DNA of 64,000 nucleotides. Source: an uncultured Mucispirillum sp. Its GTDB lineage: Bacteria > Chrysiogenota > Deferribacteres > Deferribacterales > Mucispirillaceae. A program made the position numbers and the translations under genes. The notes under the pieces were generated by a model. The model saw only the letters and a program-made list of their open reading frames with translations, did no database searches and was not told the origin of the DNA. Shown here one piece after another: positions 29,551 through 37,552 of the stretch. How positions within the stretch are numbered: position 1 is the first letter of the stretch; each line of letters opens with the position of its first letter. Location: NCBI GenBank assembly GCA_944325215.1, contig CALUZC010000013.1, positions 1 through 64,000 of the forward strand, in the 5' to 3' direction.

Positions 29551-29799
29551 TTACTCCTTGTTATTATTTTTCATCATGATTTTTGCATCGTTTTTATGGG
29601 AAATATCCCTTAAAATATCCTGCTCTAGTTTTTTTATTATATATGCCATTCCCTGCAGCTTTCTTATATTGTCCCCTTTTTCTAAATTCTGCATTATTTC
29701 AGTTCTATATGACTCTAATATGGGCATAATATATTCTGCTGCTGTTTCTGCCTGCTCACCCTTTTGTATTCGCTTTTTCCATACTGCCATTTCCTGCAT
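29551..29799 (-). CDS. Small phage-module protein, unknown
   Basis: 82 residues, helical and charged ('AAEYIMPILESYRTEIMQNL'). GGAG lies 7 bases before ATG 29799, inside the 3' end of the portal gene (44-base overlap). It ends 3 bases before the scaffold start. In many phages a short protein lies here between portal and scaffold; its role is unknown. Confidence 0.6.
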   Translation of the reverse strand: MQEMAVWKKRIQKGEQAETAAEYIMPILESYRTEIMQNLEKGDNIRKLQGMAYIIKKLEQDILRDISHKNDAKIMMKNNNKE

Positions 29800-30994
29800 T
29801 ACTTTGCTCCATAACCCTTTCTGTGCTTAAAAGATAGTTATCAATATCTTTTAGCCCACTTTCTTCTAAAAGCTTCGCCATTAAGTTTCTAATACGCATT
29901 TTATCAGTTAAATATCTTGGCTCGCCTATTTCTATCATCATAGCAAGAGCGTTACTTAAAGCACGCCTTCTAGTTTCTTCTGTGCCTGTTGATAATGACT
30001 GGGATACTGCTATATCAAAATCCACATCTTTTATATCTGATGGGTTTACTTCGATAGTATCATTTATAAGCCTTATAACCTGCGAATTATCTATAAACTT
30101 TTGGTTTTGATATATTAAAAACCTATACGTTTCTTTTAAGCTTTCTGCAAAATTTTGCACAATAGCCTGCACTTGAGAATTAGATGATTCATACTTAATC
30201 TGGGCTTCTGTGGCAGTCTGGTTTTCCACCTGAGGCCTTACTCCCTGTTTCATATCACTTATGCCTGTTACTTTCTGGTTTTCCTTATCAAAATATTCTA
30301 CTAGTGTAAAAGTATTGCTTGATATTGCTTCAAAAGGTTCAGGGGCAAAAATATTATTAATATCTGCACTATCACGCACTGCCACATACTGCTCATTTGT
30401 AACCATTTGAGAAGGGTTTAATAAATCATCTATCTTATAAAATATTTTCCTGTTATTATTTCGCCTTGTATTTTCTAATATTTCCCTAATTAATGCAGTT
30501 TTTATAATCTGCACATTTTCTGAAAGCTCAGCCAGCCCTTTACCTGCAATACTATCCATTGATAAAAATGGGGTGTAAACAAAAAATGGATACATTCCAA
30601 AAGTATTTTCTTCTATGGATAATATTTGGTTGCCACAGTATGTGATAACCACATCTTCATCAATACCGTCCTTATTAACATCAATCTTACCCCAGTATTC
30701 ATTTATCATATACATTTGACGTTTTGAGCTGCCATAACCATATAAACTGCTGTTTTTAATATCTTTTAAATCATCATCTTCAAAAGTTGATATGCTCCCC
30801 TTTATTTTTGATACATTTTTATAAATACCAGCTTTTTCCCTGCGTTTTAAATAATCATAATTGACAAGCTTTCTATGTATTATAAAATTGGCTTCCTGCA
30901 CAGATGATGCATTTGCATCAAATAAAAATTCATCATAAGGAAGCACTTCAAAAACAGGCTGATTTTTATCAATATAACATGCCTTATACTGCAC
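29756..30994 (-). pseudogene. Phage portal protein, C-terminal part (second half of frameshifted gene)
   Basis: About 412 residues that continue the portal reading in another frame. It opens with KVQYKACYIDKNQPVFEVLP and contains 'EYWGKIDVNKDG', 'GMYPFFVYTPFLSMDSIAG' and 'VTGISDMKQGVRPQVENQTA', as in P22/SU10-type portal proteins, which form the DNA entry ring at one capsid vertex. The GTG at 30994 has no ribosome site, so this is not an independent gene. The join with the upstream half lies in an A7 run (31001-31007). Removing one A restores one frame of about 590 residues. Confidence 0.8.
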
Positions 30995-30995
30995 T

Positions 30996-31529
30996 TTATA
31001 TTTTTTTATGCCAATTTATATATTCTTCTTTATAGTTAACTTTAAAGCCGTTTTTTATTAAAAGCTGCAGCTTATCATAAGTTATAATATCTTTTATTTC
31101 CTTTTCTTTTGTTTCTTTAACCCACAAAACTTTTAAAGCTGCACAGCCTGTTATTAATGCATTTGTTATAAGCCTTGTAAATATTGTGTGGTATGGGTTT
31201 TGTGATGTTATTTGGTAATTTAATAATGCCTGCATTTTCCTTGCTTTTTCTTCATCTTCCCCGTTTCTTGCTGTTATCTCCACTGGGTTTGATGTTAAAA
31301 GCAACTTATTAATATCAGGCATAACAGCCCTAATAGATACAAGCACATCACGGCTTATAAAAGAGCTTTCAGGCATTCTATACTTTTTTGTATCAATTTT
31401 TTCGCCATTATAAAGCTCATAATACTTCTTAAACTTTGGCTTTAATTCATTTGTATAGTAATTTAAAGCCTGTTTTTTATCTTCTTTTACTGTTTCTAAA
31501 ATCTCTTTTTCATCTAACAATATTTTCAT
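30996..31529 (-). pseudogene. Phage portal protein, N-terminal part (first half of frameshifted gene)
   Basis: 177 residues starting MKILLDEKEILETVKEDKKQ, with 'KPKFKKYYELYNGEKID', 'RDVLVSIRAVMPDINKLL' and 'RLITNALITGCAALKVLW', the usual N-terminal portal region. It ends at TAA directly after an A7 run; protein similarity continues in the +1 frame. Either a one-base insertion inactivated the gene, or the run is read by slippage, or the base is an assembly error. It follows the large terminase by 12 bases. Confidence 0.8.
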
Positions 31530-31540
31530 TTTAAAACCCT

Positions 31541-32977
31541 TTATCTTAATATTTTTGATGGAAGTTCCCTTTTATTTTCATTTACTTTTGCTGCAAAAGT
31601 TAATGCTAATGCATCGGCACAGTCTGGGCTTGCAAGCCCCCTTTTTTTCATATCCTGCTTTTTTTCAAGCAGTATTTGAGCATTATCTCCACGGAAATAG
31701 TATTGCGGGCCTGCTAAATCTTCCTTTAAATCTGTATCGTTTGGTATATCTGCACTTTTTAACCACTCTGCCATTTCGCCCCACATTTCAGCTCTTTTAT
31801 TTATATATTTATCCTTTCTATTTGGCTTGCCTGCAAAATCTACCCCTATTACATTATAATTTAACCATTTTAGCCTGTCATATACTCCAGCACCAACACC
31901 ACCTAAATCAATAAAAACAGCTTCAGGCTTAAATGAACTTATTTCCCTTATTACTTCATCTGCTACCTCCATAGTATCAAGTGAGCTGTATTTTTTTAGG
32001 TCATAGAGTTTTAAACCCTGACGCCTTGCTATAACTGTTTTATCTTCCCCAAAACGTGCTACATCAACACCTATTATTCGCGGAGAACTCTTGTAAACAC
32101 TTTCATCAAGCACTCGCTCTACTGCACAGTTTATACTTTCACGACTTATTAATGAGGCACTTGCCCCTGATGGAAATTCGCCCAGCACTCTTATTTTTAC
32201 AAAATCACTATCTAATCCATAATCTGCTACCCATTTATTAAGCTGCCTTTTATCTGTTATTGGCACTGTTCTACTATCTATTTTTTTAGTAATCCACCTG
32301 TGCCTAAACCTGCCAAAACACTCATAAAATCTGCCACTACTTCTTGTAGGGTTGCCAAAACATAAGAAAAATATTTCTGTATTTTTATCCGTCATAGCTC
32401 CTTCTGCCACCTCCCAAATACAGTCAGGTATGGCAGAAGCCTCATCAAAAATAATCAATATTCTTCCCCCTTGATTATGAAGCCCTGCAAATGCTTCCGG
32501 CCTGTGCTCACTCCAAGGGATTGCATCTATTCGCCAGGTTTTTTCATATCTTGCATCAGTGCTAAATATGGCTGTTTTGCTTACTTCAAACATATCTTCT
32601 ACAATTGATAACCTGTGCCACTTTGCAAGCTCTGCCCAGGTTTTACTTTTTAGCTGATGTTCAGTATTAGCAGTTATTACTCCCTTAGTATTTGCTTTAG
32701 TGGAAATAGCCCACAAAATAAGCCAGGAAACTAACGCACTTTTTCCTATGCCATGCCCTGAAGATACTGCTATCTGCACTGCTTCGCTTAGATTTATTAT
32801 CCCCTCCCTTATATTTACAAGCACTTCTTTTTGCCAGTCTAATATACCATGTTCCTTTAATTCATTCTGCCCCCAGCTAAAAGCTGCCTGCACAAATAAT
32901 AAAGGGTCTTTTTCTGTGCGCGCTAATATATATGCTAAATCTTTTAAGGCTCGTGGGCTTTTTCCTTTTTTACTCAT
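31541..32977 (-). CDS. Phage terminase large subunit
   Basis: ATPase-nuclease that packages DNA into the capsid. 478 residues from ATG 32977, which overlaps the small-subunit stop; an in-frame ATG at 32992 is possible. ATPase motifs: 'SSGHGIGKSALVSWL' (Walker A) and 'ILIIFDEASAIPD' (Walker B), 'FLCFGNPTRSSGRFYECF'. Nuclease: 'IIGVDVARFGEDKTVIARR' and 'EAVFIDLGGVGAGVYDRL', carrying the metal-binding aspartates, and 'PDCADALALTFA' near the end. The protein looks intact. Confidence 0.92.
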   Translation of the reverse strand: MSKKGKSPRALKDLAYILARTEKDPLLFVQAAFSWGQNELKEHGILDWQKEVLVNIREGIINLSEAVQIAVSSGHGIGKSALVSWLILWAISTKANTKGVITANTEHQLKSKTWAELAKWHRLSIVEDMFEVSKTAIFSTDARYEKTWRIDAIPWSEHRPEAFAGLHNQGGRILIIFDEASAIPDCIWEVAEGAMTDKNTEIFFLCFGNPTRSSGRFYECFGRFRHRWITKKIDSRTVPITDKRQLNKWVADYGLDSDFVKIRVLGEFPSGASASLISRESINCAVERVLDESVYKSSPRIIGVDVARFGEDKTVIARRQGLKLYDLKKYSSLDTMEVADEVIREISSFKPEAVFIDLGGVGAGVYDRLKWLNYNVIGVDFAGKPNRKDKYINKRAEMWGEMAEWLKSADIPNDTDLKEDLAGPQYYFRGDNAQILLEKKQDMKKRGLASPDCADALALTFAAKVNENKRELPSKILR

Positions 32978-33341
32978 CTTCCTGCACACCATCTATTAGT
33001 TTTTTAGCTTTTTGCATTAAATCAGCCATATCATCTTTTCCGTTTACTACTTTATCGCTGTAACCAAAGCTGCATTTTAGGTTGAATATTACACCTGTTG
33101 TGGCATAGCTTTTATCTGTAAGCATATCTATTGTCTGGCTTTCCATACGCAGTTTTATTCTGTTTATTGCTGGAGCAAATTCTTCTATTTTTTCTAAATC
33201 TAAAAACTGGCTTTTATCCGTAAAACCAAGATAATACGATATTCCAGCAATGGAGCATGGTTTATTTTGTGTTTCCTGCTCTAAAAAATACTGCTCTGCC
33301 ATTTTTTCTAAATCTTTTGGTTTTTTATATTTTTTATTCAT
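32970..33341 (-). CDS. Phage terminase small subunit
   Basis: 123 residues with 'CSIAGISYYLGFTDKSQFLDL' and 'DKSYATTGVIFNLKCSFGYSD', typical of the gp3-like DNA-recognition subunit. AAGGAA precedes ATG 33341. It is the first gene of the phage transcript; the 185 bases upstream (33342-33526) hold no integrase or repressor, only a TGTC motif repeated three times at 9-base spacing (33399-33420) and a palindrome at 33504-33522. Confidence 0.85.
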   Translation of the reverse strand: MNKKYKKPKDLEKMAEQYFLEQETQNKPCSIAGISYYLGFTDKSQFLDLEKIEEFAPAINRIKLRMESQTIDMLTDKSYATTGVIFNLKCSFGYSDKVVNGKDDMADLMQKAKKLIDGVQEDE

Positions 33342-33522: not shown

Positions 33523-33559
33523 ATTTATGCGTAAGTTTATTTTATGTAAGGTGGCTGTT

Positions 33560-34459
33560 TTGCTTAAAAAGGTATTAATAATTGTATTTATAATGAATGT
33601 TTTACCCATACATATTATGCCATTATATGCTTTTGATAAACAAAGTTTTATAGACTCTTATTCTGGTATAGAATTTAAAGCTCTTAATAATAAAACTTAT
33701 TTAGCCGTTTATGAAGTTACTCAAGAGCAGTGGTATAAAGTTATGAATACTGCTCCGTTTTCTTTTAATAAAGGCGGCCAATACCCTGCTGAAACCATAT
33801 CTATTGGTGATATACAGAAATTTCTAAACACATTAAATGAAAAAACAAACTCTAAATACAGGCTCCCTACTGTTGCTGAATGGAAAGAGGCTGCAGGCGA
33901 ACCTGGCTACAGCCGTGATAATATATGTAACTATGCCAATATATATGATATATCATCAAACAGTGTAAACAGGTTTGGCAATGCTTATTTTGACTGCGAT
34001 GATGGTTACCCTAACACTTCACCTGTTGGCTCTTTTCCTGCTAATGCTAAAGGTTTTCATGATTTATACGGCAATGTAAAAGAATGGCTCTGTAACTCAG
34101 AAAGTGATAGAACAAATACTTGTGCTTATCTTTTAGGTGCTGCCTCTTTAGCTGTTGCAGGCGGCGGGTATAGTGATGGTCCAAAAGAAATGAGAAATAT
34201 AGTAAAAGATGAAAGAACTTCCCTTCGTTTTGCAGGGCTTGGCTTTAGATTAGCCATTGATAAATCAGCCATTAATGTAGATGCTGTTAGAGATAAAACT
34301 GCAAAAGATAATATAATCACACCATCTTCTACAATACCTGTTGCTCCAAAAGAAAGTAACCCGCAACCTGCAGCTATTGATAACCAAAAAAGCAATACTA
34401 CTGAAAAACCTAGCACTCAAGAACGTAAATTTAAATTTCTACCTTTTTTAAGAGATTAA
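33560..34459 (+). CDS. Exported FGE/SUMF1-domain protein
   Basis: From TTG 33560, five bases after AAGGTGG, the protein is 299 residues and begins with a clean signal peptide (LLKKVLIIVFIMNVLPIHI). A longer frame from ATG 33527 would start upstream of the transcription start predicted from TATAAT 33519-33524, so TTG is preferred. The body matches the formylglycine-generating-enzyme-like fold: 'YEVTQEQWYKVMNT', 'YRLPTVAEWKEAAGEPG', 'FHDLYGNVKEWLCN' and 'TSLRFAGLGFRLA'. Most bacterial members are not true sulfatase activators; several are secreted binding or effector proteins. The C-terminal 60 residues are Pro/Ser/Lys-rich and probably unstructured. Confidence 0.85.
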   Translation: MLKKVLIIVFIMNVLPIHIMPLYAFDKQSFIDSYSGIEFKALNNKTYLAVYEVTQEQWYKVMNTAPFSFNKGGQYPAETISIGDIQKFLNTLNEKTNSKYRLPTVAEWKEAAGEPGYSRDNICNYANIYDISSNSVNRFGNAYFDCDDGYPNTSPVGSFPANAKGFHDLYGNVKEWLCNSESDRTNTCAYLLGAASLAVAGGGYSDGPKEMRNIVKDERTSLRFAGLGFRLAIDKSAINVDAVRDKTAKDNIITPSSTIPVAPKESNPQPAAIDNQKSNTTEKPSTQERKFKFLPFLRD

Positions 34460-34605: not shown

Positions 34606-34634
34606 TTGACACATGTAGAAATATACTATACTCT
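34606..34634 (+). promoter_or_regulatory. Likely promoter of the metzincin lipoprotein gene
   Basis: TTGACA (34606-34611) with TATACT (34627-34632, 15-base spacing) or TACTCT (34629-34634, 17-base spacing). The -35 box is perfect; the -10 is uncertain. Confidence 0.45.
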
Positions 34635-34658: not shown

Positions 34659-35462
34659 ATGAAAAAAATCAATTTAATCTTCTTATCATTGCTATTTGGC
34701 TGTGTGCTTTTTACAGTAAGCTGTGCAGACCAAGACACAGGTACAAATGGGGGGGGGATAGCTGATTACGGTCCTGGATATGACCCTAATGACCCAATAG
34801 ATGCTAAATATCCATACTGGCGAGTAACTATAAAAGATTTTGGCTGCAGCAATGGCACTAAATGCACTTGGACAGTAGCAGAAAAAAAAGCAGCCATTAA
34901 AATGATGGCAAGGCTTCGTGCTATGCTAAATATCCCAGAATTTCAAGATGTTTTTAGGAAAAATGCTCCATATATTGCTGATGAAGTTGAATCTTATGAA
35001 GGCTCTCCATATTCTACAACTACTGGTGAAGCTTACGATACTGAAAGGCTTTTATGGTCTATTCTTAATGCTGATTTTGAAGTAACTTATAGAAAACAAA
35101 AGATGAATGGTGGTGATGCTTCTGCAAATGTGGGTAAAAGTTTATATGTTCAGCTTGGGTATAACCCTAATGTATATAATTTTGATTATATTTGTAACTT
35201 TCCAAATACAACTTATACAGGAAAAGGAAATAGTGGATATGTTTCTCATACATCTCTAGTATTTCATGAGCATTTACATAATATGGGTATGACACATGCA
35301 CATGGTCAAGACCCTGTTACCGATATACAAATGGTTTTATTTGATTGGTGGTATAATGGTAATCCTAAATTAGAAACATCTCATCAAGCACAAATAGATG
35401 AAATTACAAACCATTATTTAGAAAAGTATGCTCATTTACTTAAAAGTGATACTTCAAATTAG
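34659..35462 (+). CDS. Putative zinc metalloprotease lipoprotein (metzincin motif) with in-frame G9 tract
   Basis: 267 residues. Signal peptide with Cys22 in a lipobox-like VSC suggests a lipid-anchored outer protein. Residues H203-E204-x-x-H207-x-x-G210-x-x-H213 form the extended zinc motif HExxHxxGxxH of metzincin proteases, and 'IQMVLF' some 10 residues later could hold the Met-turn. Codons 31-33 are GGG GGG GGG: a run of nine G (34749-34757) in a very AT-rich genome. A change of one G would shift the frame and truncate the protein right after the signal peptide, so this looks like an on/off switch. The family is not otherwise recognised; protease activity is inferred from the motif. Confidence 0.78.
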   Translation: MKKINLIFLSLLFGCVLFTVSCADQDTGTNGGGIADYGPGYDPNDPIDAKYPYWRVTIKDFGCSNGTKCTWTVAEKKAAIKMMARLRAMLNIPEFQDVFRKNAPYIADEVESYEGSPYSTTTGEAYDTERLLWSILNADFEVTYRKQKMNGGDASANVGKSLYVQLGYNPNVYNFDYICNFPNTTYTGKGNSGYVSHTSLVFHEHLHNMGMTHAHGQDPVTDIQMVLFDWWYNGNPKLETSHQAQIDEITNHYLEKYAHLLKSDTSN

Positions 35463-35591: not shown

Positions 35592-36566
35592 TCAACAGCC
35601 GTAGAACTGTCTTATTAACCCAAGAACTTCATCAATATTATTTGTTTTATATATATTTACCCTAAAATCTGATGCTTTATCAAACCCTTTGCAAAACCAA
35701 ACAGCAAACTTTTTTAATACATGCATATAGTGAGTTTCTTTCATATTTCTGCCCTTTGTATGCTCAAGCATATGTTCCCAAAGTCTGTTAAGCACACCTG
35801 CAATTTCAGCAGGGCTTAAATATGAATATACATTATTTTGCTTATTTTTTATTACTTCAAATACCCATGGGGCTTTCATCATGGCTCTTCCTATCATTAC
35901 ACCAGCTACGCCTGTTTCTTTCATCTTTTTGTAACTGTCATAATCTGCAACACCACCATTACCAATTAATGTAATTTTTGAATTTTCTGCCAATTCCTGT
36001 AAAATATCAAGACGAACAGTGCCACCAAACATATCACTTTTCGTTCTTGCATGAACTATTAATGCATTAACACCTTCATTTTCTGCTATTTTTAATATTT
36101 CATTATAGACTAGGTTTTTTTGGTCTAACCCTATTCGTATTTTTATGGAAAATGGTTTATCTGTAGATTTTCTTATGTTTTGAACAATGGCTTTAATTCG
36201 CCCTAAATCACCAAGCAAAGAGCAGCCACCCCCTGCCTTTATAACTTTTTTTACAGGGCAGCCCATATTCACATCAAATGCATCAACCTGTGCTTCATTT
36301 TCTGCTACCTTTACTGCTTCTGGGTAACTTTCTGCCCTGCCACCAAAAAGCTGAAAAACTAGTGGGCTTTCATATTCCTTTCTATCAAGATATTCTAATG
36401 TTTCCTTATTTCTTCTTGCAAGCCCTTCAACAGATATCATCTCACTATATACTATACCATCAAAAAAATTACGAAGAAGCCTTCTATAAGGCATATGTGA
36501 ATAACCTGCTAAAGGTGCTGCCACTAAATCATTTTCTAGTAAATTTTTTTTAAAAAAATCTGACAT
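35592..36566 (-). CDS. dus: tRNA-dihydrouridine synthase
   Basis: Flavoenzyme that reduces uridines in the tRNA D-loop. 324 residues with 'AAPLAGYSHMPYRRLLRNF', 'FQLFGGRAESYPEAV', the catalytic cysteine in 'FDVNMGCPVKKVIK', 'FSIKIRIGLD', 'LIVHARTKSDMFGG' and 'IGNGGVADYDSYKKM'. Closest in style to DusB. Its start overlaps the tsaD stop by one base, so it is the last gene of the long operon that begins with ftsE. Confidence 0.95.
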   Translation of the reverse strand: MSDFFKKNLLENDLVAAPLAGYSHMPYRRLLRNFFDGIVYSEMISVEGLARRNKETLEYLDRKEYESPLVFQLFGGRAESYPEAVKVAENEAQVDAFDVNMGCPVKKVIKAGGGCSLLGDLGRIKAIVQNIRKSTDKPFSIKIRIGLDQKNLVYNEILKIAENEGVNALIVHARTKSDMFGGTVRLDILQELAENSKITLIGNGGVADYDSYKKMKETGVAGVMIGRAMMKAPWVFEVIKNKQNNVYSYLSPAEIAGVLNRLWEHMLEHTKGRNMKETHYMHVLKKFAVWFCKGFDKASDFRVNIYKTNNIDEVLGLIRQFYGC

Positions 36567-37552
36567 TATAATAATCCTATACTATGCTTTGTATCGTATG
36601 CACTGCCTTTATAATTTAAAAATTTTCTAAATTTATAAAACCTTGTGGCTGCATATGCTATCATCTCGCCATTATCTGTGCAGCGAGAAATTTCTGGAAA
36701 ATATACACTTTTACTGCCCCTTAATTCATTAAATACTCTGCGTATTTCCTTATTTGCTGCAACACCGCCACCTACAACTATTTTATCCCTATTCATCTGA
36801 TTTGCCACATAAAAAACTTTATCTGCTAAAGTTTTTGCAATGGTGTATTGAAATGATGCTGCTATATCTTCATTAGAATACTCACCCTTATTAATGGTAT
36901 TCATAACTGATGTTTTTAAACCACTAAAACTAAATTTTAACTCATTTTTAAAAGCTGTTGGAAATTTGATTTTATTTCTGTCCCCATTTTCTGCCATATT
37001 TTGTATATATATACCACCAGGGTATGGTCCACCCATTACTTTTGCTGTCTTATCAAAAACTTCCCCAGCAGCATCATCAATTGTCCTGCATATTAAAGAA
37101 AAATTTAATGCTTCATCTACATCAAAAATATGACTGTGACCACCAGAAATGATTATGGCTGTATAAGGTGGTCTTAAATCAGGATATGATAATTCTGCTG
37201 ATAATATATGACCTGCTAAATGGTTAACAGGCATTACAGGTTTATTTAAGGCATAACCAAGCCCTTTTGCAAAAGATACCCCAACAAATAAAGCTCCAAT
37301 AAGCCCAGGAGCATTTGTAACACCTATAATATCAATATCCTTTGCTGATATTTTGCTTTCATTTATACATTCATCATACAAGGGCTTAATTTTTTTAATA
37401 TGGTTTCTTGAAGCCACTTCAGGTATAACTCCACCGAAATGAGCATGGATATCTGCCTGAGAAAATATTTTACTGCATAATGTGCCATGCTCTGTGGAAT
37501 ATACTGCAATGGAAGTTTCATCACATGATGTTTCAATACCTAAAGCTATCAT
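36566..37552 (-). CDS. tsaD: tRNA N6-threonylcarbamoyladenosine synthase subunit
   Basis: Catalytic subunit for t6A37 of tRNA. 328 residues opening MIALGIETSCDETSIAVYS, with 'FGGVIPEVASRNHIKKI', the metal motif 'VNHLAGHILSAEL' (HxxxH), 'IISGGHSHIF' and 'VVGGGVAANKEIR'. tsaB and tsaE are not in this window. It lies between the deacetylase-like gene and dus. Confidence 0.96.
   Translation of the reverse strand: MIALGIETSCDETSIAVYSTEHGTLCSKIFSQADIHAHFGGVIPEVASRNHIKKIKPLYDECINESKISAKDIDIIGVTNAPGLIGALFVGVSFAKGLGYALNKPVMPVNHLAGHILSAELSYPDLRPPYTAIIISGGHSHIFDVDEALNFSLICRTIDDAAGEVFDKTAKVMGGPYPGGIYIQNMAENGDRNKIKFPTAFKNELKFSFSGLKTSVMNTINKGEYSNEDIAASFQYTIAKTLADKVFYVANQMNRDKIVVGGGVAANKEIRRVFNELRGSKSVYFPEISRCTDNGEMIAYAATRFYKFRKFLNYKGSAYDTKHSIGLL

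Follow-up and report, generated by a model that had tools for sequence, protein, structure and literature searches.

A nine-guanine tract in a predicted lipoprotein gene of Mucispirillum: a candidate contingency locus within a genus-wide set of poly-G tracts

Introduction

Nine consecutive guanines stand shortly behind the signal of a predicted lipoprotein gene in a 64-kb stretch of Mucispirillum DNA (hereafter the window), and the question raised by this locus is whether they act as an ON/OFF switch of the gene or only encode three glycines. The window is contig C13 of an assembly of 2.55 Mb in 67 contigs, which orthologues assign to Mucispirillum in the phylum Deferribacterota. Mucispirillum schaedleri is known as a core mouse-gut bacterium and was linked to intestinal inflammation in mouse models (PMC5285517). 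The paper that describes the M. schaedleri ASF457 genome mentions neither phase variation nor homopolymers or frameshifts (PMC5285517), and a full-text search of open-licence papers retrieved none on phase variation or homopolymeric tracts in Mucispirillum that was relevant by title or abstract, which is no proof of absence.

The tract was compared with other poly-G tracts of the same genome, of the genus and of the order, and the protein encoded behind it was examined.

Materials and Methods

Tracts were collected by pattern search, with two genomes (G002 and G005) represented by part of their tracts. Across six genomes tracts were matched by their flanks, and an intact copy was compared with its orthologue by tblastn, lying there in one or in two frames. 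The switched states of sister tracts were judged only from such homology-checked orthologue pairs, and the ON state of the focal orthologues from direct translation.

Results

The tract and its reading frame

Direct reading of the sequence confirmed the nine-G run, which encodes Gly31-Gly33 (codons 31-33) of an ORF of 267 amino acids. The hydrophobic signal ends in FTVSC, and Cys22 precedes the tract by nine residues. The features of the locus are:

34606-34632, forward strand: candidate promoter without tract, TTGACA, 15-nt spacer, TATACT; both boxes invariant in five species
34659-35462, forward strand: ORF of 267 amino acids, predicted lipoprotein containing the motif HExxHxxGxxH, its frame open (ON) at G9; orthologues in four other Mucispirillum genomes
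34659-34724, forward strand: signal peptide with lipobox-like FTVSC (Cys22), from sequence; the layout of lipobox plus poly-G recurs in other Mucispirillum lipoproteins
34749-34757, forward strand: G9 tract, Gly-Gly-Gly, codons 31-33, read directly; exactly G9 in five Mucispirillum species
34759-34765, forward strand: TAG (34759-34761) and TGA (34763-34765), stops of the remaining two frames right after the tract, from sequence
35265-35297, forward strand: HEHLHNMGMTH, predicted metzincin-type zinc-binding motif, from sequence; invariant in orthologues

As the earlier note had held, nothing comparable occurs elsewhere in the window, where the tract is the only run of G or C longer than five, and its improbability by chance was borne out by a first-order Markov model, under which 0.007 runs of G9 or longer are expected in 64 kb. 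Among 11 runs of at least three glycines in the long ORFs of the window, the focal one alone is spelled entirely with GGG, a codon that makes up 14% of the glycine codons. With nine guanines the tract reaches the length of at least nine that is used as the lower limit for phase-variable poly-G in Neisseria (PMC5953494). Translation of slipped versions agreed with the further claim that a slip of one base removes the protease domain: with G8 the predicted product ends at 33 and with G10 at 35 instead of 267 amino acids, because TAG and TGA immediately follow the tract in the other two frames.

The encoded protein

Residues 203-213 of the focal protein, HEHLHNMGMTH, fit the pattern HExxHxxGxxH and are invariant in the orthologues. 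Searches of Pfam, NCBIfam and PDB sequences with the focal protein gave no credible match, and no credible fold match was obtained with Foldseek against the PDB, for which the query was a poor AlphaFold2 model of focal orthologues (mean pLDDT 46). Since profile, PDB-sequence and fold matches were all missing, the assignment as a predicted surface zinc protease is motif-based. Of the metzincin lipoprotein proposed earlier, the zinc-binding motif and the lipobox-like Cys22 therefore stand, while membership of a known family found no match in Pfam, NCBIfam, PDB sequences or folds. The likeness to metzincin metalloproteases consists in the invariant motif; the differences are the missing profile, sequence and fold matches (the model being too poor to judge the fold) and Met225, 12 residues past the motif and the only methionine compared, which is replaced by Leu in G005. 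The orthologue of the same genome carries nine extra residues in the linker after the anchor. In G043, another member of the order, an ORF (L192:1999-2415) adjacent to a weak match with the profile of the focal protein contains HGIMHNLGFNH, in which His-Gly replaces His-Glu and the glutamate of the zinc motif is absent.

Poly-G tracts in the genome and the order

The search for further tracts of eight or more guanines, suggested in the earlier note, yielded 33 in the genome of the window, 31 of which are G9 or longer, compared with about 0.9 such runs expected in 2.55 Mb. Run lengths were bimodal in 290 kb around the tracts, a sample picked for its tracts and hence biased, with 38 runs of five, three of six, none of seven, two of eight, 22 of nine, six of ten and three of eleven. 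Raw counts of G9 or longer tracts amounted to 29-43 in six of seven Mucispirillum genomes with a completeness of 90% or more and to 13 in the seventh; in the rest of the order 33 of 36 genomes had 0-8, the outliers being G043 (64), G034 (65) and G037 (18). By these patterns the focal tract clearly belongs to a genus-wide poly-G set. Two order members besides Mucispirillum, G043 and G034, thus each hold more than 60 such tracts by raw count. A defect in mismatch repair was rejected as their origin, since both MutL and MutS1 are intact in the genome of the window.

Sister tracts with ON and OFF copies

Ten orthologue pairs were found in which an intact copy aligns to its partner in two separate frames, the junction of which falls precisely at the tract, and in eight of these ten the tract length differs. 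A DUF6056 protein is intact with G10 in the genome of the window and broken with G9 in G003; a sulfatase is broken with G9 in the former and intact with G10 in the latter; a SAM methyltransferase is intact with G10 and broken with G11, respectively; and an N6/N4 DNA methylase (L046:3964-5843, contig C19) is broken with G11 and intact with G9, respectively. Switching of this methylase could possibly constitute a phasevarion.

According to Pfam, tract genes in the genome of the window encode glycosyltransferases, an FdtA-like sugar enzyme, a formyltransferase, methyltransferases, sulfatases (one EptA-like), a radical-SAM protein and RCC1-repeat proteins; those in G002 include GT2 and GT9 glycosyltransferases, MBOAT acyltransferases, sulfatases, a histidine kinase and a HAMP/4HB sensory protein. 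Such a repertoire is typical of contingency (phase-variation) targets.

Tracts in promoter spacers

Upstream of genes, 12 of the 33 tracts in the genome of the window lie in a sequence of the form TTGACATT-C8..10-(A)TGA-TATAAT-like, in which the poly-C is predicted to be the spacer of a sigma-70-type promoter with TTGACA/TATAAT-like boxes. The repeated cassette precedes 12 genes, among them two for RCC1-repeat proteins and one for a SUFU-domain protein; cassette loci in this genome are L032-L035, L039, L044, L047, L048, L050 and L052. The tracts sampled in six genomes include 43 promoter-spacer sites, and 26 of these show a 15-nt spacer, which is the commonest length with tracts and, weakly, also without. 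Since the homopolymer lies between -35 and -10, its length sets the spacing of the boxes and could set promoter strength.

Lipoproteins of the same layout

A poly-G tract 6-13 residues past the lipobox cysteine recurs in other Mucispirillum lipoproteins, often with a broken frame. In the lipoprotein ...LAGCADDSKDSNGGG, together with its relative in a second species, and in the lipoprotein ...ILLSCDAVQDGGG the tract is near the focal position, and all are frame-broken. A multi-copy set of TAT-lipoproteins, ...YGCSKDGGSEIIYGGG, bears the poly-G 11-13 residues past the lipobox cysteine, and in the copies scanned the part downstream matches DmsA/YnfE-type molybdopterin reductases. Copies are found in G004 (L070, L081, L086, L092, L093), G006 (L128, L129, L132, L135, L137, L146) and G002 (L153). 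In most of them the frame breaks at the tract (G8, G9 or G10), just two copies in G004 and two in G006 reading through it; possibly they are phase-variable respiratory enzymes.

The focal gene across species

In each of the five Mucispirillum species that carry the gene the focal tract has exactly nine guanines and keeps the frame open, and neither a length variant nor an OFF copy was found among these five genomes. The gene is absent from G002, a genome with over 40 tracts. DNA identity to the copy in the window is 93-97.5% for the focal gene and 80-97% for the neighbouring dus and tsaD (35592-37552). In G004 and G006, the two species farthest from that of the window, the focal gene is 94-96% identical, compared with 80-81% for the neighbours, and an exchange of the gene between species is therefore probable. 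Because it looks recently exchanged, the five G9 genomes are non-independent observations.

Just upstream of the focal gene, terminase-like genes and a protein with an FGE-sulfatase domain (PF03781) occupy 29756-33341 (reverse strand) and 33527-34459 (forward strand) of the window, and relatives of both lie upstream of the gene in other species too. Protein searches covering phages, plasmids and viral contigs gave no relative; hence nothing evident marks the gene as carried by a phage or plasmid, although terminase-like genes are close by.

Discussion

We consider the focal G9 to be, rather probably, a simple-sequence contingency tract that acts as a slow translational ON/OFF switch of the lipoprotein and is at present ON. 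With about 30 poly-G runs per genome, several of which switch other genes between species, the focal gene is probably a slow switch too. At G9 the frame would be open and the lipoprotein made; slipped-strand mispairing would add or drop one G, so that a stop follows within two codons past the tract and the OFF product would be reduced to the lipid anchor plus a short tail; a second slip would restore the frame. These comparisons suggest that the focal tract itself may slip in living populations. Given that MutS and MutL are present and that nine is the lower limit in Neisseria, the rate at the focal tract may be low, and any switching there is probably slow. The candidate phase-variation switch of the earlier note is thus favoured by the genus-wide set and by sister tracts with natural ON and OFF copies; against it stands the invariant focal G9, and because that length recurs in all five (non-independent) genomes the focal gene is graded as a candidate only.

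That same invariance suits another explanation, namely that the tract shares the genus-wide origin and is now a constitutive glycine tether past the lipid anchor, in which selection for an open frame keeps nine guanines and which seldom or never switches. G9 in frame in all five species, the presence of mismatch repair genes and a linker that tolerates insertion, as the nine additional residues in G005 illustrate, are in line with it. However, a tether needs glycines and not GGG, and the exclusive use of this minority codon, the frame breaks at the tract in lipoproteins of the same layout and the length differences among sister tracts make a purely constitutive role rather unlikely. A functionless chance run in an ordinary gene could appeal to the tract being single in the window, but the excess over expectation, both there and in the whole genome, and the presence of the tract in four further species render it highly improbable; it is the genome-wide count that refutes it. 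Still less credible is a sequencing or assembly artefact: homopolymers are prone to error, but five species, each assembled separately, yielded the identical G9, and with nine guanines the frame is open.

Beyond the single gene, it is quite probable that Mucispirillum, a gut bacterium that lives in mucus and stands outside the Proteobacteria, possesses an undescribed genome-wide poly-G phase variation, composed of frame tracts, often in the tether of lipoproteins, and of a repeated poly-C promoter-spacer cassette. Its outputs would be surface glycan enzymes, a DNA methylase, the focal lipoprotein and, in sister species, multi-copy DmsA-like reductases with few copies per genome in frame. If about 30 genes of M. 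schaedleri do switch by poly-G slippage, mixed surface types would be present within clonal cultures and in gnotobiotic mice, host responses could select variants, and switched-off genes would be misreported as pseudogenes in assembled genomes. Respiratory reductases, if phase-variable, would be an unusual target for a poly-G switch.

Comparison with known systems

The arrangement resembles the poly-G phase variation of Neisseria (PMC5953494) and Campylobacter jejuni (PMC8437040) in that tracts of at least nine lie within the ORFs of genes for surface structures and glycans. Mucispirillum likewise has tens of tracts per genome and natural copies in the ON and the OFF state, and the modal length of nine is shared with Neisseria. 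It differs in belonging to a different phylum, in the many tracts placed in the tether after a lipoprotein anchor, in the tracts of sister species in DmsA-like reductases and, for the focal gene, in the lack of a length variant among five genomes. A second type of switch, represented by porA and opc of Neisseria, has its homopolymer in the promoter spacer. This type is approached by the 12 of 33 tracts described here that lie between -35 and -10, whereas the focal tract, situated in an ORF, is of another class; and the Mucispirillum promoters are distinguished from porA and opc by a near-identical cassette repeated before many genes.
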